From Deltaproteobacteria bacterium (GTDB taxonomy: Bacteria > Desulfobacterota > Syntrophia > Syntrophales > Smithellaceae), in assembly GCA_026388535.1 (NCBI GenBank), contig JAPLJP010000168.1:1-53868 (forward strand): a stretch of DNA of 53,868 nucleotides, read 5' to 3'. Positions 19,924 to 52,202 of this stretch are shown here, in pieces. Each line of letters begins with the position of its first letter. The first letter of the stretch is position 1. Both the position numbers and the translations under genes were made by a program. The notes under the pieces were generated by a model that was not told where the DNA came from, searched no databases, and saw only the letters and a list, made by a program, of their open reading frames with translations.

Positions 19924-21600
19924 CTAGGATGTTGGTTGGAAAGGACTACCTTTTGGTATTGTAATGCCCTGAAGAGTATAAATAGTTTCATACTCTCCCC
20001 GTAAAACATCCCTCAACTGCAAAATCGAACCAGTATTGCATACTAATTTATCACCATTTTTTTCAAACAATTTACCCTGAAAAATTATCCGATCACCATA
20101 ACCTTTGGAAATGACATCTTCAATCAAGAAAACTTTTGTCCAAGTGTGAAACTCTCCATTAATAGTATCATAAAAATAAGCTTCTCCATAAATTTTTCGG
20201 AGTACTTCGGAATGCAGAGCTTTTGTAAAATAATTACCAAATGCCAGCGCGGAATCGGAATGCAGAGCTTTTGTATAATAATTACCAAATGCCAGCGCGG
20301 AAAGGGGAGAAGAGGCACGAATCAAGAAAATTTTAAGATAATTTTTATACTCACTTTCTGCTTTCAGATGAACTGCCAACGATTCTTGTTTTATCGTCAT
20401 ATTTTGTATAAACACATTCTTGATGTCCACTATTCTCCATACACTGCTGAAAATAAAAAAAATACCAATAAAAAAAACAATATTTTTGGTATCAAAACGG
20501 TTAAAATAATTAATTCTCTGCAAATACAAAAACATTAAAAATAACACGAATCCGGAGAGACTCAAGGCTGGTAACAAATAGTAGTCAGAACTATGCTTAG
20601 CAATCATCATAACGGCACACAGTTGCGCAACCACCACCGCCGCTAAGACTCTAAAGGAGATGTCTTGCCAGGCAATCTTTCTCGTTGCCGAAAACAAGCC
20701 GAATCTAAAGATAAAGCCGAGGGCAACAAACCAGATTAGAAAGAATAAAGGATTGCCCCCGAATAGATACAGAAGATTTTGGAAATAGACACCGATATCT
20801 ATTATCCCGGATTTGCCGAATCCATAGTGGCCCGTATGAGTGAAGATAAGGTAAAACCATCGATAGATACGTTCATACTGCGAGATGATTGGCCATGTCC
20901 ACAAAATGACACTTAACCCGGTCAAGAATAGAAAACCAATTTTATTTCGTAATCTTGGTAAAACGAACAAGGGAATAATCAGCAGAGGAATGAAGGTCAC
21001 TTTGGTGGCTATTCCAAAACCTGAAACCAGGGCCAAAGTTATCAGATACCAGTGAACAGATTTAGGGAAACTTTCGCTAACGACCATCATCACTAAAATC
21101 AACACCAACAGCAAACTTGAAAACAGCAAGAGAGGTTCACAGGAAATTCGAGGCAACCCCTGGGTTAACATGGCATTAGAAAGAAATGGCGAAAATTGCA
21201 ATAAAAGGCTTAGCCAGATATTTTTGGTTAGAATAAAAGTCGCCAAACCAATGATGCATAGCAACAGTGTATTGAAGGTTATTAGTACCATATTAAGAAC
21301 GGTCAAATAAAATTCAGGATTCTTGAGAACCGCAAATTCCAGGTTGTCTTTTGCGGAAAAGTTAAGGGCGTGTGAAATTTTCAAAGTGGCCGCTCCCAAC
21401 AATTGGAGCGTTGCACCAGGATGGTCAGAAAGAATCATTTGTTTCGATTCAGCCAGGACAAGAGAACTTATTAGATAAGGATACTCAGGATCATTGTTAT
21501 AAGATATCCAATAGGGACCGTGAGCATGGTGTAAAAGCATAGCTGTAATAAATAATATTGCCGGCAATATCAGCAGCACAAACACGGGTAATTTTTTCAT
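19924..21600 (-). CDS. GT-C-type membrane glycosyltransferase-like protein
   Basis: A polytopic membrane protein of 558 aa. About ten hydrophobic segments lie between residues 5 and 385, followed by a hydrophilic C-terminal domain of about 170 residues. The first outer loop carries NNDPEY near residue 36, placed like the acidic motif of GT-C glycosyltransferases (ArnT/PMT type) that use polyprenyl-phosphate sugars. The donor and acceptor are unknown. The C-terminal domain contains a tandem duplication of 16 residues (SALAFGNYYTKALHSD). The gene is convergent with the yidB-like gene. Confidence 0.7.
   Translation of the reverse strand: MKKLPVFVLLILPAILFITAMLLHHAHGPYWISYNNDPEYPYLISSLVLAESKQMILSDHPGATLQLLGAATLKISHALNFSAKDNLEFAVLKNPEFYLTVLNMVLITFNTLLLCIIGLATFILTKNIWLSLLLQFSPFLSNAMLTQGLPRISCEPLLLFSSLLLVLILVMMVVSESFPKSVHWYLITLALVSGFGIATKVTFIPLLIIPLFVLPRLRNKIGFLFLTGLSVILWTWPIISQYERIYRWFYLIFTHTGHYGFGKSGIIDIGVYFQNLLYLFGGNPLFFLIWFVALGFIFRFGLFSATRKIAWQDISFRVLAAVVVAQLCAVMMIAKHSSDYYLLPALSLSGFVLFLMFLYLQRINYFNRFDTKNIVFFIGIFFIFSSVWRIVDIKNVFIQNMTIKQESLAVHLKAESEYKNYLKIFLIRASSPLSALAFGNYYTKALHSDSALAFGNYFTKALHSEVLRKIYGEAYFYDTINGEFHTWTKVFLIEDVISKGYGDRIIFQGKLFEKNGDKLVCNTGSILQLRDVLRGEYETIYTLQGITIPKGSPFQPTS
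20211..20306 (-). repeat. 48-bp tandem duplication inside the glycosyltransferase gene
   Basis: Two 48-bp units (20211-20258 and 20259-20306) are nearly identical over their first 43 or so bases, with one clear A/T difference. They encode SALAFGNY(Y/F)TKALHS(D/E) twice, in frame. The Tyr/Phe change shows that the two units have begun to diverge. Confidence 0.9.
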
Positions 21601-31131: not shown

Positions 31132-31206
31132 TGGTAGTCCCACGGGGAGTTGAACCCCGGTTTCCGGCGTGAGAGGCCAGCGTCCTAACCACTAGACGAT
31201 GGGACC
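31132..31206 (-). tRNA. tRNA-Glu (anticodon CTC)
   Basis: A 75-base cloverleaf on the minus strand with an encoded CCA end. The acceptor GGTCCCA pairs with TGGGACT (one G-U), the D-arm contains AGTGGTTAGGAC, the anticodon stem CTGGC pairs with GCCGG around CTCTCAC (anticodon CTC), and the T-stem CGGGG pairs with CCCCG around TTCAACT. It lies 172 bases downstream of gltX, on the same strand. Confidence 0.93.
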
Positions 31207-38763: not shown

Positions 38764-38932
38764 ATCACGGGTATTAACCCCGGGGCAAGACCTTCGCAAG
38801 AGGCAGGGTATCATACCCTCCGCTTGGATTGTTATATTGTCCCGCTAAGCTTCGCACGCGGGATAATTCGACCTGCAAGTTTCAGTGCACTTTGTTTCTG
38901 AAACTCGGGTCTCATTAAAATTTGAGTCTCAC
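38764..38932 (+). repeat. Intergenic repeat family, copy A (forward)
   Basis: It starts ATCACGGGTAT and contains ATACCCTCCGCTT, GGGATAATTCGAC, GTCTCATTAAA and GAGTCTCAC, the same blocks found in copies B, D and, inverted, C and E. Hairpins: TCCCGC (38840) with GCGGGA (38858), and AGTTTCAG (38878) with CTGAAACT (38898). Confidence 0.8.
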
Positions 38933-38951
38933 AATAAGTAAGGATAATAAA

Positions 38952-47576: not shown

Positions 47577-47785
47577 ATCACGGGTATAAACCCAAAAGCA
47601 AGCTACGGAGTATTTATATCCATGCTTATGCAGGATAGTTCAACTAACAAATTTTAATTCACTACGTTCTTAAAATTTGTGTTTCACTACCCTCCGCTTC
47701 ACGGGATAATTCGACTAACGCCTCAAACTTCATCCCGACTCGTCGGTATTCGTTTTCAGCGAGTCTCATTAAATTGGAGTTTCAC
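47577..47785 (+). repeat. Intergenic repeat family, copy B (forward)
   Basis: It starts ATCACGGGTATAAACCC and holds CTACCCTCCGCTTC, GGGATAATTCGACTAAC and GAGTCTCATTAAA, ending TTGGAGTTTCAC. Hairpin AAATTTTAA (47649) with TTAAAATTT (47670). Its right end carries the stop codon of the minus-strand gene at 47769. Confidence 0.82.
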
Positions 47786-49307
47786 GAACAAAAAACGGAG
47801 CGTGGTTGGAAGTGAAAAATTCCGGTGTGCGTCTGATTACAGGAACTATTGCCGGATGCTTTTTAAAAGTTTTCTCCAGGAAGTTGCGCACGGCAGACCT
47901 CTGCCAGCCGAGAGGATGCTGAAAGTTTTTGTAAAGAGATAAATCGCCTTCATAAAAATCATGAGTGGAGAGGCTTCGTGCCTCGACGCTTCGCGATGGC
48001 AAATTAAAAATCGCCAAGTTTAAAAAATCAATGCACTCATGATGTCTGGCAACGAAATCCATTGTTTTCAACGCGCTTTCTTCATTTTCCGGCGGCGTGC
48101 CGAGAAGAAAATAACAGTAGACAGCAATGCCTGATTTCTTAAGCGTTTTTAAAATGGCGGAAGCCGTCGACAAATCAATTCCTTTGTTTAATTGATCAAG
48201 AACTCTCTGGTCACCGGATTCGATTCCCAACTTAAGCATGGCACAGCCGCTGCGTTTTAAGGATAAACAAAAATCTTCATCAGCTAAATGTTTGGTTATG
48301 CGGGTAAAACCGTACCATGGCTCCCCCGGCGGGCTTTGCGCCAGAGCGCCAAGCAGTGATGGCGAAATGGAACTATCCAGAATATGAATCAATGAAGGAT
48401 TCGTCTGCCGGTTCAATATCTGAAGTTCCTCTGTAACCTTGGAAACCTCAAGTGGCAAATAAGCATTGCCTTCCGCTTTTTCCGGGCAAAAGGCGCATTT
48501 GTGCCAGTAACAGCCGCGTGCTGCGCTGTAAGGTAGAATCAGGCCGGGCGATAAATATTTATTAAGCGGGAAACCATCGTAATCGGGCGGGGAATTGTTT
48601 GAGCCGTTTTTAACGTTCAGAATCTCCAGCAATTTTTTTTCTCCCGCGCCTTCCACCATGTAATCCACAAGGCCGCGAAAAATATTTTTGCGCGCGCCGA
48701 GTTTGATCCATGAGGTAATCAGAGATCCGCCCAGAATAATTTTTTGCCGCTGCTGAATTTGTTTGATAAAGCCGATCATGGCAAAAGTGCAGAGAGCCTG
48801 GCTGAGATAGTTCATGGAAAAACCGATAAAATCAGGATTGCTTTCCAGCGCTACCATCAGGCGATTTTGAAAGTAAGGATAGAAAGGATTGGCCTGTGGT
48901 TTTTCAGCTGCGGATATTAAGTCGGAACTCTTTACAGGGGATAAATTTTGATCGTGATAATCGGCAAGCGATAGGTCAACGTGCCATGATTTAGCCGCCA
49001 CATTTAAAAGATGGTTAATATCCATAACTGCCCGCTGATATCGGCTTTGGTTTTGATAAGTGTCTATATTTCGCAACGCGGCAAGATTTCTTTCCAGATT
49101 TTTTATCGCACGCGTTGTCCAGCGGTCTGCAGTTGTATTTTTATCGGAAGTATGCTTCAGCAAAAAGAGTATACCTTCAAGATTAGCATCAATAACATCA
49201 TTTGAAATGCCGTTTTCATTTAGACAGGATGATAATTTAGCGATGCCGGCGGGCGGTTCTGAGCATTTGGCAACCGGCGGATGAATTAAAATTATTTTTG
49301 GTGACAT
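47769..49307 (-). CDS. B12-binding-type radical SAM protein (CYW subfamily)
   Basis: A protein of 512 aa. The N-terminus (IILIHPPVAKCSEPPAGIAKLSSCL) is of the B12-binding radical SAM type. The cluster motif GCYWHKCAFC at 265-274 has C-x4-C-x2-C spacing, a variant known in proteins with a GCYW start. MLKLGIESGDQRVL near 345 and a YCYFLLGTPPE strand follow. The final residues (RETPI) and the stop lie inside repeat copy B, so the original C-terminus may have been altered by insertion of the repeat. The substrate is unknown. Confidence 0.85.
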   Translation of the reverse strand: MSPKIILIHPPVAKCSEPPAGIAKLSSCLNENGISNDVIDANLEGILFLLKHTSDKNTTADRWTTRAIKNLERNLAALRNIDTYQNQSRYQRAVMDINHLLNVAAKSWHVDLSLADYHDQNLSPVKSSDLISAAEKPQANPFYPYFQNRLMVALESNPDFIGFSMNYLSQALCTFAMIGFIKQIQQRQKIILGGSLITSWIKLGARKNIFRGLVDYMVEGAGEKKLLEILNVKNGSNNSPPDYDGFPLNKYLSPGLILPYSAARGCYWHKCAFCPEKAEGNAYLPLEVSKVTEELQILNRQTNPSLIHILDSSISPSLLGALAQSPPGEPWYGFTRITKHLADEDFCLSLKRSGCAMLKLGIESGDQRVLDQLNKGIDLSTASAILKTLKKSGIAVYCYFLLGTPPENEESALKTMDFVARHHECIDFLNLAIFNLPSRSVEARSLSTHDFYEGDLSLYKNFQHPLGWQRSAVRNFLEKTFKKHPAIVPVIRRTPEFFTSNHAPFFVRETPI

Positions 49308-49341
49308 AATTTACATATTTATTGTTAAATCTGTTTTATTT

Positions 49342-49503
49342 GTGAAACTCCAATTCCGAAAGCGAATCGTATAGCCTAAAGGTCACACGTCGGAATTGGT
49401 AAGTTGAATACCGACGCTGTCGGGACAAAGCGGAGGGTATAATCCCCCGCAGCTTGCTGCGGAAACTTTTCCCAAAGCTTGCTTTGGGGTTCATACCCGT
49501 GAT
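49342..49503 (-). repeat. Intergenic repeat family, copy C (reverse)
   Basis: Reads on the minus strand from ATCACGGGTATGAACCCC to GGAGTTTCAC. Hairpins: CCAATTCCG (49350) with CGGAATTGG (49391), CCGCAGC-TT-GCTGCGG (49447), and CCCAAAGC-TT-GCTTTGGG (49471). Confidence 0.85.
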
Positions 49504-49689
49504 TTGTCTGCTACCCCTTTAGTATCTAATTATTGCTTGCGCAAGGCCAATTTTTACAGTTCAGATTTGCCACTTGACAGGTGACGATCTTTACGCAATA
49601 GTCACACCTGTTGAAAAAGCAGGAAGGCTGTAATAACGATCTTCTATTATTAAGACCATTGAATATTCGATATTATCTTTTGGTAATTT

Positions 49690-50469
49690 GTGAAAATTAA
49701 TTTTTTTGACAATAGAGTTAAAATAATATTGGCTCTGGTTATCGCGTTATTTGTTACGCTTATAGCCGGCACAACATTTGCGGTGGAAAAATATCCGGCG
49801 TCACGGGGTGCTATCAATGATTTTGCCAATGTCATTGATCAGGAAAACGCCGCTAAAATGGAAGCCCTGGCGAGAGAAGTATTGCAGAAAACAGGCACGG
49901 CGGTTGTTGTGGCAACAGTTGACACTATAGGCGAGAATGAAGATTACAATCTTTATGCCAATGGTCTTTATCAAGCGTGGGGTATTGGGAAAAAAGGAGA
50001 AGATAAGGGTGTTTTAATCTTTCTTGCCGTCAAAGAAAGAAAAATCCGTATTGAAACAGGCTATGGTGTGGAAGGAATATTGCCGGACGGTTTAGTCGGT
50101 GAAATTCTGGATAAGTATGTTCTTCCTCTTCTTAAGGAGGGCAATTACGGCAAAGGACTTTATAACGCGATGTATGCATGTTCTGCCTACATTGCCAAAG
50201 AGGCCAATGTTCAAATAAGCGATTCGCCTGCGCCATACCGGACGATGGTCCGGTCAGGGAAAAGAAGCATCGGCATTTTTGAAATTATTATTTTCCTGAT
50301 TGCGGCTGTGTTACTTTTAGGCACAAGAACGGGCAGGTCAATGCTACCCTGGTTGATGCTTATATTCTTGAGTGGAGGCCGTGGCGGTGGTGGCGGCGGT
50401 TTCGGTGGCGGGTTTGGCGGATTTGGCGGCGGTGGAAGCGGCGGCGGCGGAGCCGGCCGTAGTTTTTAA
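49690..50469 (+). CDS. TPM-domain (YgcG-like) membrane protein
   Basis: A protein of 259 aa. A signal or anchor segment covers residues 9-30 (IILALVIALFVTLIAGTTFA). The TPM domain spans about 32-165 (INDFANVIDQE, GIGKKGEDKGVLIFLAVKERKIRIETGYGVEG, LPDGLVGEILD). A membrane helix follows near 200-225, then a long Gly-rich tail (GGGGGFGGGFGG). The family is found beside LemA and may act in membrane or envelope quality. Here LemA is two genes on. The start is GTG with a weak ribosome site. Repeat copies flank it in inverted orientation and its TAA stop overlaps copy D. Confidence 0.85.
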   Translation: MKINFFDNRVKIILALVIALFVTLIAGTTFAVEKYPASRGAINDFANVIDQENAAKMEALAREVLQKTGTAVVVATVDTIGENEDYNLYANGLYQAWGIGKKGEDKGVLIFLAVKERKIRIETGYGVEGILPDGLVGEILDKYVLPLLKEGNYGKGLYNAMYACSAYIAKEANVQISDSPAPYRTMVRSGKRSIGIFEIIIFLIAAVLLLGTRTGRSMLPWLMLIFLSGGRGGGGGGFGGGFGGFGGGGSGGGGAGRSF

Positions 50470-50606
50470 TCACGGGTATAAAACCCAAAGCAAGCTTTAG
50501 GATTTTATACCCTCCGCTTTGTCCCGACAGCGTCGGGATTCAACTTACCAAGTCCGATGCGCCTATAGTGACCTTTAGATTATACGCTTTCGGACTTGGA
50601 ATTTCA
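50469..50606 (+). repeat. Intergenic repeat family, copy D (forward)
   Basis: It starts ATCACGGGTATAAAACCC. Hairpins: TCCCGAC (50522) with GTCGGGA (50532), and CCAAGTCCG (50548) with CGGACTTGG (50591). The second stem has the same place as in copies C and E but with one T-A pair replaced by G-C. Confidence 0.85.
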
Positions 50607-50631
50607 GCAATAAATTTTTAGGGTGAATAAA

Positions 50632-51357
50632 ATGTCAAAAATACCGAATAAACCACAGGATGTTTTTGTTCCTTTAACTCAAGACTATCTGAAAGTATTC
50701 GGCAGAGATCTGATTTCTCTTATTCTTTACGGGAGCGCTGCCGGTGGCTCTTATGTAAAAGGAAAATCGGATATTAATCTGCTGGTCGTTGTTACGCCGG
50801 AAGGCATCAAAAGGCTGGAAGATTCTTTGTCCACGGTTAAACATTGGAGAAAGTGCCGTGTGTCTGTGCCACTTATTATGACAAAGGCGTTTATGGAGAA
50901 TTCTCTGGATTGTTACCCGATAGAATTTTTGAATATGAAAAAAAGCCATATTTTAATTTATGGCGAAGATGTTTTGGAACAATTAAATTTTAAGCCGGAA
51001 GATTTACGTCTGCAAATTGAGAAAGAATTGAAAGGGAAGCTGATTTTGTTGCGCCAGGGTTATCTGGAAACGGAGGGGAACACGAAGCAGTTGAAACAGC
51101 TTGTCAGCCGGTCATTTACGGCTTTTATTTCCATATTCAATGCTCTGCTTTATTTGAAGCAGAAATTGGCGCCGCAGAAGAGACGCGATATAATAAAAGA
51201 AGTGGCTAAACTTTTTGCGGTTGATGCGGAAGTATTTTTAAGTTGCGCCGACATTAAAGAAGGTGTGGATAAGCTCTCCGGCGAAGAAGTCGCGGATGTC
51301 TTCAAAAAATATCTGCACGAAGTCGAAAAGATTTGTAACATCGTTGATGTTTTATAA
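50632..51357 (+). CDS. Nucleotidyltransferase-fold protein
   Basis: A protein of 241 aa. The N-terminal nucleotidyltransferase signature is LYGSAAGGSYVKGKSDINLL near residues 34-53, with GS and the D-x-N pair; in typical enzymes the motif is GS-x(8-10)-DxD, and here the second Asp is Asn (SDIN). Catalysis is therefore doubtful. The rest is helical. The frame opens at GTG 50623, but AGGGTG suits ATG 50632. It sits 33 bases before lemA and after the TPM gene, between repeat copies D and E. Confidence 0.75.
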   Translation: MSKIPNKPQDVFVPLTQDYLKVFGRDLISLILYGSAAGGSYVKGKSDINLLVVVTPEGIKRLEDSLSTVKHWRKCRVSVPLIMTKAFMENSLDCYPIEFLNMKKSHILIYGEDVLEQLNFKPEDLRLQIEKELKGKLILLRQGYLETEGNTKQLKQLVSRSFTAFISIFNALLYLKQKLAPQKRRDIIKEVAKLFAVDAEVFLSCADIKEGVDKLSGEEVADVFKKYLHEVEKICNIVDVL

Positions 51358-51389
51358 TTTATAAACTTAACATAATGCAGGAGGTAAAA

Positions 51390-51965
51390 ATGGATTCAAA
51401 AAAGAAAACTTTAATCATCGTGCTGGCAGTAATTGTGTTTTTGGCTATCGCGGCTTATTCTTTTTTCGCGGGCAATTACAATAAATTTGTCAAGTTGGAT
51501 ACGGCAATAAAAAGTTCTTGGGCGCAGGTGGAAAATCAATTACAGCGACGTTATGATCTGATTCCCAATCTGGTGGAAACTGTAAAGGGTTACGCCAAGC
51601 AGGAAAAAGATGTTATGGTGGAAGTGACCAACGCCCGCGCTAAAGTCGGCGGCGCCGGAACTGTTCCCGATAAGATCGCGGCAAATAATGAATTGTCCGG
51701 CGCATTGAGCAGAATGCTTTTAGTTGTGGAGAAATATCCCGATCTGAAATCCAATCAGAATTTCATGCACCTGCAGGACGAGTTGGCGGGAACGGAAAAC
51801 AGAATCGCCGTGGAGAGAATGAGATACAACGAAGCGGTAAAAATTTATAATCAGACAATAAAATCATTCCCGGCCAATTTACTAGCCGGTATGTTTGGTT
51901 TTAAAGAAGCTGTATTCTTTGAAGCGCCGAAGGAAGCCAAAGAAGCAGTAAAGGTTAAATTCTAG
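51390..51965 (+). CDS. lemA: LemA family protein
   Basis: A protein of 191 aa. One N-terminal membrane helix (LIIVLAVIVFLAIAAYSFFA) is followed by the helical LemA body: YNKFVKLDTAIKSSWAQVENQLQRRYDLIPNLVE-type start, ENRIAVERMRYNEAVKIYN near 130, and FPANLLAGMFGF near 160. An in-frame ATG at 51375 is rejected because AGGAGG lies after it and before 51390. LemA and TPM proteins often form one operon; here a nucleotidyltransferase gene separates them. Confidence 0.92.
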   Translation: MDSKKKTLIIVLAVIVFLAIAAYSFFAGNYNKFVKLDTAIKSSWAQVENQLQRRYDLIPNLVETVKGYAKQEKDVMVEVTNARAKVGGAGTVPDKIAANNELSGALSRMLLVVEKYPDLKSNQNFMHLQDELAGTENRIAVERMRYNEAVKIYNQTIKSFPANLLAGMFGFKEAVFFEAPKEAKEAVKVKF

Positions 51966-51994
51966 CCGCGAATTTAATTTGTGATATTTTATTG

Positions 51995-52202
51995 TTGAAA
52001 CTCCAATTCCGAAAGCGTATAACCTAAAGGTCACTATAGGCGTAGCGGAATTGGTAAGTTGTAATGAGACTCAAACTTTAAAAGCTAAGTACATTAAAGT
52101 TTGTTAGTCGAATTATCCAATAGCCAAAGGCTATTGGGAACAATCCCGCGAAGCGGAGGGTTTAATACGTCACAGCCTGCGTTGGGGTTCATACCCGTGA
52201 TT
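51995..52202 (-). repeat. Intergenic repeat family, copy E (reverse)
   Basis: Reads on the minus strand from ATCACGGGTATGAACCCC to GGAGTTTCAA. Hairpins: CCAATTCCG (52003) with CGGAATTGG (52046), AAACTTTAA (52073) with TTAAAGTTT (52094), and CCAATAGCC-AAA-GGCTATTGG (52117). It is the longest copy with the most hairpins. Confidence 0.85.

Follow-up and report, generated by a model that had tools for sequence, protein, structure and literature searches.

Covarying hairpins in Smithella relatives belong to a modular repeat that is probably a mobile DNA element

In a 53,868-nucleotide contig (C142; the whole of it is the window analysed here) of the 2.86-Mb metagenome-assembled genome of a Deltaproteobacteria bacterium of the Smithellaceae (coded G000), a first-pass annotation of the sequence had noticed a family of repeats whose stems change on both sides at once. 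We find that these stems belong to a dispersed, non-coding, modular repeat of this genome and of its Syntrophaceae and Smithella relatives. The repeat is probably a non-autonomous mobile DNA element built of hairpin modules, since its copies are dispersed, mostly intergenic, present or absent between species and adjoin TTTA. We favour the view that the fold is kept as a DNA hairpin or cruciform rather than as RNA.

The stems described in copies A to E all exist, with copies B to E lying where they had been placed and copy A lying at ~38.8-38.9 kb, outside the range quoted by the first-pass annotation. A T-A pair in the left hairpins of the 49336 and 51989 copies (CCAATTCCG with CGGAATTGG) has become G-C on both sides in the 50468 copy (CCAAGTCCG with CGGACTTGG). 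A second stem is likewise changed on both sides between the 47577 copy (AAATTTTAA with TTAAAATTT) and the 51989 copy (AAACTTTAA with TTAAAGTTT), and copy A has a stem on the minus strand that differs in sequence yet pairs (AGTTTCAG with CTGAAACT). The five copies of the window, which occur in both orientations, and their hairpins are as follows.

38764-38937, minus strand: element copy (copy A of the first-pass annotation), left end GTGAGAC, right end ATACCCGTGAT.
38898-38905 and 38878-38885, minus strand: arms AGTTTCAG and CTGAAACT of a nested ATGAGAC hairpin within copy A.
47577-47791, minus strand: element copy in the mem-RSAM gap, which also holds elements in G008, G009, G002 and G006.
47648-47679, plus strand: second-type hairpin inside the 47577 copy, arms AAATTTTAA (47649-47657) and TTAAAATTT (47670-47678).
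49336-49504, plus strand: element copy in the divergent RSAM-TPM gap, where G008 has the empty site.
49346-49405, plus strand: left hairpin of the 49336 copy, AACT and CCAATTCCG paired with CGGAATTGG, a TA bulge and AGTT; stem 49350-49358 with 49391-49399; the 32-nt loop equals 14 nt plus one 18-nt unit, around 49370-49389.
50468-50613, minus strand: element copy in the TPM-NT gap.
50548-50599, minus strand: left hairpin of the 50468 copy, carrying the compensated pair, CCAAGTCCG and CGGACTTGG (50548-50556 with 50591-50599); 34-nt loop with a 20-nt unit near 50562-50582 (length from coordinates).
51989-52202, plus strand: element copy on the downstream side of LemA, with two hairpin modules.
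51999-52060, plus strand: left hairpin of the 51989 copy, CCAATTCCG and CGGAATTGG, stem 52003-52011 with 52046-52054; 34-nt loop with a 20-nt unit near 52020-52040.
52072-52103, plus strand: second-type hairpin of the 51989 copy, CAAACTTTA and TAAAGTTTG, 14-nt loop.
52073-52081 and 52094-52102, plus strand: arms AAACTTTAA and TTAAAGTTT in that second-type hairpin.

A first extraction of hairpins, in which the right anchor with the best pairing was chosen, gave 258 anchored hairpins, of which 215 formed 5 or more of the 9 pairs (90 being perfect) and 187 formed 7 or more; its per-genome counts seem to include some genomes twice, and hairpins were de-duplicated by context. Because this choice of anchor biases towards pairing, we built the later sets without it: a 127-row set, for which flanks and loop length were the sole criteria (144 contexts before identical rows were dropped), and a 98-row set of hairpins with 14-nt loops, chosen irrespective of pairing (104 before the same reduction; 45 columns). 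As a null, the parsimony number of changes was placed randomly on a FastTree tree, in an R-scape-like test of our own and not R-scape itself.

In the 127-row set, a mean of 8.15 of 9 pairs were Watson-Crick, against 5.82 when right arms were shuffled among copies (maximum 6.26, 1000 shuffles); the eight variable pairs had a mean covariation of 59.4, where the null reached 22.6 at most; and the tree carried 18 both-side changes, whereas 200 null simulations averaged 2.3 and never exceeded 8. Similarly, the 98-row set showed 25 both-side changes (null mean 1.7, maximum 6). Its 12 strongest column pairs, out of 903, all lay within one nested fold (null mean 0.3, maximum 2), a null figure that is partly circular because the fold was partly defined from the same ranking: eight of the 12 form the 9-bp stem proposed beforehand by the first-pass annotation, while it was the rankings that revealed the outer pairs, the tenth pair and the tip, and the 16-pair fold includes pairs added after ranking. 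The earlier claim that sequence changes while pairing stays is thus borne out beyond a tree-based null in both sets. Taken singly, four of the 16 helix pairs of the 98-row set reach E<0.05.

The common fold of the 98 distinct hairpins consists of 4 bp, a 2-nt bulge on the 3' side, 9-10 bp and a GCGNAGC-type tip. The outer helix joins [AG]AC[TC] to [AG]GT[TC], its column pair 2-43 being G-C in 48 hairpins, A-T in 47 and A.C in 3. The tip is GCGNAGC or ACGNAGT and its closing pair covaries (G-C 49, A-T 41, others 8); loop positions 4 and 10 pair in 90 of 98 and positions 5 and 9 in 91 of 98, with G at position 6 in 72 and A at position 8 in 91. Stem sequences differ greatly but in a compensated way, with a mean entropy of 1.05 bits; variability of the loop is not higher (0.93). 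GNA-loop DNA mini-hairpins, e.g. GCGAAGC, are described as exceptionally stable (PMC4686876), and the stem bulge of the E. coli REP is described as required for recognition by its transposase and for activity (PMC8266576). By analogy, the bulge and the GNA tip suggest a DNA hairpin that may be recognised by a protein.

These hairpins sit in an element with a fixed order: TTTATT(N)GTGAAAC, the left hairpin, optional further hairpins, usually AGCGGAGGGT, and the right end ATACCCGTGAT, the left and right ends not being inverted repeats of each other. The 120 copies treated as complete measure 79-388 bp (median 150); end tabulation took in 108 of them, with consistent TTTATT upstream and GTGAT downstream. 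Copies are mostly intergenic, 95 of the 120 overlapping a called open reading frame (ORF) by at most 25 bp where 82% is coding. Searching the genome of origin with one copy returned 58 matches spread over many contigs, and a pattern scan of named genomes returned 36 stretches, in records of Syntrophaceae, Smithella or Deltaproteobacteria. Across the 60 genomes of a relatives search, the repeat was found in 32, comprising 16 of 17 genomes of the genus, 13 of the remaining 19 family members and 3 of 24 genomes from the rest of the order, all three weakly. The sole genus member without an element match, G016, has the same gene order at the studied locus for the genes found.

Next, the syntenic locus was compared in 13 genomes of the genus; statements that a site is empty hold among the matches listed. 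The 49336 copy faces an empty site in G008 (TTTTTA/TTTGTC, the slash marking the junction), and the 47577 copy is missing from G012 and G001. The site of the 50468 copy, in the TPM-NT gap, is empty in G003, G008, G012, G014, G001 and G004. At that place G010 has another copy, and a different element is found in G002, G006 and G011; this gap has therefore served as a target more than once. One G012 copy has an empty site in G001, G008, G004 and G009. An insertion of a related type in G008 (left end ATGAGAC, right end GCCCGTGA) is missing from G001, G009 and G004, and its flanks are 95-97% identical to G001; G008 gained it after its split from G001. Gap A of G000, G008, G009 and G002 holds elements with similar right ends and differing interior modules, a pattern that suggests module exchange or repeated insertion. 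Separately, L021 carries two near-identical copies with like flanks (near 1500 and 5500), ~4 kb apart, probably through duplication of a segment.

In the empty/filled pairs and tabulated copies, the target reads TTTA/TT. In the 108 copies, the base after GTGA is T 106 times and the one after that is T 89 times; the +2 base is non-T in 19 of 108 and the left mirror base in 6, with boundary placement ambiguous by 1-3 nt. A strict target duplication is unsupported by the flanks tabulated for these 108 copies.

Covariation of this kind could also arise if the copies were transcribed and the fold were selected in RNA, as a terminator, an mRNA stability element or a small RNA; the covariation is real, and a bulged helix with a conserved tip could be a protein-bound RNA. 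We regard this as quite improbable. An orientation test on 79 copies (the 120 minus 25 overlapping a called ORF and 16 without a near neighbour gene) showed no preference of orientation or position relative to genes: of the 52 flanked by co-directional genes, 22 had the orientation of these genes and 30 the opposite one (p 0.33), and each of the four gene contexts was represented. Mismatches at 13 pairs of the 127 rows were G.T in 38 cases and A.C in 31 (p 0.47); 18 tRNAs of the same loci had 10 and 3, which does not differ significantly from the hairpins (p 0.20), though this control is too small to decide. Rfam at gathering score gave a single match in the window, the tRNA at 31135-31206, with the repeat copies unmatched, and presence or absence at orthologous sites likewise speaks against an RNA role. 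Selection on RNA is therefore unsupported, given the unbiased orientation and the near-equal G.T and A.C counts. Among the three options left by the first-pass annotation (folded RNA, DNA hairpin or cruciform, template-switch correction), the DNA hairpin fits best, because of the mobile element, the GNA-type tip and the symmetric mismatches.

The third option, in which template switching at quasi-palindromes copies one arm onto the other and so equalises them without selection for the fold, is rather unlikely and is not needed to account for the stems. Quasi-palindrome correction is described in yeast (PMC3820800), and the similar numbers of G.T and A.C mismatches point to a process at work on both strands of the DNA. 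However, among the 21 distinct perfect stems of the pairing-aware set, 20 are one pair-change from another, so the changes look stepwise and not in blocks; the bulge and tip are kept; and breaking changes are not rapidly repaired, the 127-row tree holding 80 changes from Watson-Crick to non-Watson-Crick against 25 reversals. A comparison of orthologs for arm correction yielded eight cases only, of which one was clearly orthologous, and that one was unchanged.

We return to the reading as mobile DNA. Under it, the element would move as folded single-stranded (or cruciform) DNA, and a recombinase would recognise it by its shape, the features recognised being the stem, the 2-nt bulge and the GNA tip. 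Mobility would survive any change of stem sequence that leaves pairing intact, so that stems would drift pair by pair with compensation while flanks and tip stay constant; copies losing pairing would stop moving and then decay.

Several observations weigh against this. Taken singly, none of the eight variable stem pairs of the 127-row set reaches E<0.05 (0.06 to 3.97; the ninth pair is invariant on the left, and phylogeny is strong), and only the four helix pairs of 16 mentioned above do so in the 98-row set, two of them outside the pre-proposed stem. Breaking changes are commoner than compensated ones on the 127-row tree, 80 against 18. Both the tip motif and the symmetry of wobble mismatches are indirect evidence that an RNA role would also accommodate, and with boundaries uncertain by 1-3 nt there may be a 2-3-bp target duplication. 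No mobilising protein was found, Y1, reverse transcriptase, IS110 and integron integrase each being undetected in some element-rich genomes. Finally, L150 (G021) contains a relative of the L043 RAYT gene, and an element copy begins ~30 nt past its stop codon.

The last observation bears on a further explanation, that the repeat belongs to the REP/REPIN or IS200/IS605-derived families moved by Y1 transposases; it led us to rate this explanation somewhat higher than before, though still as unlikely. The absence of inverted terminal repeats, the subterminal hairpins, the T-rich 5' target and the stem bulge would all suit such a family, as would the three Y1 genes of the genome of origin and the right-end motifs on either side of the L043 (G000) RAYT, 1.25 kb upstream and 1.47 kb downstream. 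Against it, 26 of the 32 element-bearing genomes have a Y1_Tnp gene, and so do 18 of the 28 element-free ones (within the family, 23 of 29 and 5 of 7), and PF01797 had no match in 6 of the 32 element-bearing genomes (G003, G008, G011, G012, G026, G034), including the element-rich G008, where loss after the last insertion is possible. Moreover, in the 20 Y1 loci read, 3 from the genome of origin and 17 from relatives, no gene is closely bracketed by element ends, although one available flank is short (41-424 nt) in L187, L191, L194, L195 and L200. The genome's own Y1 genes (L044, around 930-1440 and 1920-2110, L042 and L043) carry different REP-like flanks, for example palindromes of the GTAGGG and AAGGGGTCAAGTCT types, and two of these genes have hairpin modules of the ACTCGCTGAAAACGA type upstream.

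Other candidate movers were searched in 36 genomes, with G022-G035 left out. Nine of 19 element-bearing genomes had a reverse transcriptase at E<=0.001, 7 of them over the cut-off, and 8 of 19 had IS110. For integron integrase, TIGR02249 scored over its cut-off in 12 of the 19 element-bearing genomes, as well as in all 3 element-free family members searched, and was not over it in G000, G001, G003, G008, G010, G011 and G014; over all 36 genomes searched, integron integrases above the curated cut-off occur in 21. G008, element-rich, listed as 98% complete and in ~10 contigs, had no Y1/RAYT, reverse transcriptase, IS110 or integron integrase over cut-off. Such co-occurrence counts would not speak against a universal host recombinase as the mover. 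An autonomous parent, with these ends around a gene, was sought in the fetched stretches only, where four candidate intervals shared no ORF and one lacked an ORF of 80 aa.

Additionally, the hairpin loops themselves carry short units. Of the 187 hairpins with at least 7 pairs, 117 have loops of at most 16 nt without a unit (113 exactly 14 nt), 56 have loops with a CCTRAAGG-type unit and 14 have loops of other kinds. Unit-bearing loops measure 32 (18 cases), 34 (7), 35 (6), 50 (10), 53 (1) and 54 nt (5), with nine others; the lengths listed equal 14 plus 18, 20 or 21, once or twice, and the units are themselves hairpins, sometimes nested. By eye, one orthologous element in G011, G002 and G006 shows exact 20-nt steps, from GCGAA/GCC to GCGAA-TAACCTAAAGGTCACTATAG-GCC and then to a second 20-nt unit inside the first, and another hairpin of the same element shows a third 20-nt step. 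The repeated unit suggests that these steps would be insertions rather than losses. Of 81 distinct occurrences of the unit core, 70 have an element module within 130 nt and 11 have none by the pattern used, two of the latter (G010, G000) lying inside a different inverted repeat. In L142 and L021, from two species, a 21-nt loop unit sits inside a different inverted repeat (GGATTCCCGCCTGCG...CGGGAATGAC). It is conceivable, and we offer it with some doubt, that the units are self-nesting mobile DNA: 18-21-nt hairpins that would insert just 3' of the GNA tips of DNA hairpins, their own included, so that elements would grow by nesting, and that would ride the larger TTTA-targeting hairpin element, the mover being either a protein of a family so far unconnected with repeats of this kind or a universal host recombinase. 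These nested units and the species-level differences in presence lie beyond what the first-pass annotation could see.

Literature searches, only one of them directed at Smithella and with most subscription papers outside reach, showed no account of this element among the papers listed; the nearest known kinds are REPINs and very small mobile repeats, and the nested loop units are its most unusual feature. Integron attC sites have inverted R''/R' boxes (RYYYAAC/GTTRRRY) around a hairpin, whereas here the left GTGAAAC and right GTTGAAC are not inverted partners, and the integrase is not over its cut-off in some element-bearing genomes. IS200/IS605 elements have no terminal inverted repeats, make no target-site duplication and insert 3' to a fixed T-rich 4-5-nt target; the present element shares with their derivatives the lack of such repeats, the subterminal hairpins and the fixed T-rich 5' target TTTA, and would work similarly if the single-strand model is right, but no cognate transposase was found. 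Like REPs and REPINs, it is short, intergenic, palindromic, non-coding and present in many copies, with compensatory hairpin changes. Such changes are common in REPIN hairpins (PMC3116915), and stems of the REP family differ from one another at complementary positions (PMC3733652), so that the phenomenon as such has precedent. REPs are defined by a GTAG or CGTC tetranucleotide at one palindrome end (PMC3733652) and REPINs by two inverted REP copies in one hairpin (PMC3116915). The present element differs in having no GTAG/CGTC tag, ends that read TTTATT(N)GTGAAAC and CCCGTGAT and are not inverted copies, a greater length (79-388 bp), a TTTA site and nested modules; moreover, no cognate RAYT with this repeat on both flanks was found in the 20 Y1 loci, the genome's own RAYTs carrying other REP-like flanks.

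For the loop units, the SDRs of cyanobacteria, which reportedly form hairpins and enter hairpin loops, would be the nearest parallel, likened here by description only: both are ~20-nt units at dispersed sites that include hairpin loops (here of 14-54 nt, with three 20-nt steps). The SDRs belong to another host phylum, whereas the present units are embedded in a larger covarying element, and in one another, by steps of 18, 20 or 21 nt. A paper that cites Elhai et al. 2008 for the SDRs describes them as very small repeats of ~20 nt that might be mobile (PMC2884548). Mitochondrial GC clusters and repetitive hairpin elements are likewise described as mobile, with presence/absence differences, merging and tandem insertion (PMC4478555, PMC2800124), and two sponge hairpin types are a few complementary substitutions apart (PMC2800124). 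They resemble the present element in these respects, but their changes concentrate in loops, whereas here it is the stems that show wide, compensated variation.

Around four of the window copies, the neighbouring genes match the Pfam families ABC_trans_CmpB, Radical_SAM, TPM_phosphatase, LemA and NUDIX, and a 244-aa protein at 50623 has no Pfam match. Elsewhere in the window, 20207-20302 is a 48-bp direct tandem duplication, 98% identical.

Although covariation is commonly read as a sign of RNA, a DNA fold is its likelier source here, in a bacterial mobile repeat where covariation can reveal selection on that fold and not on sequence. Species-level presence and absence lets its insertions be dated, and the fixed loop steps and nesting provide a concrete case in which insertion into hairpin tips can be tested.

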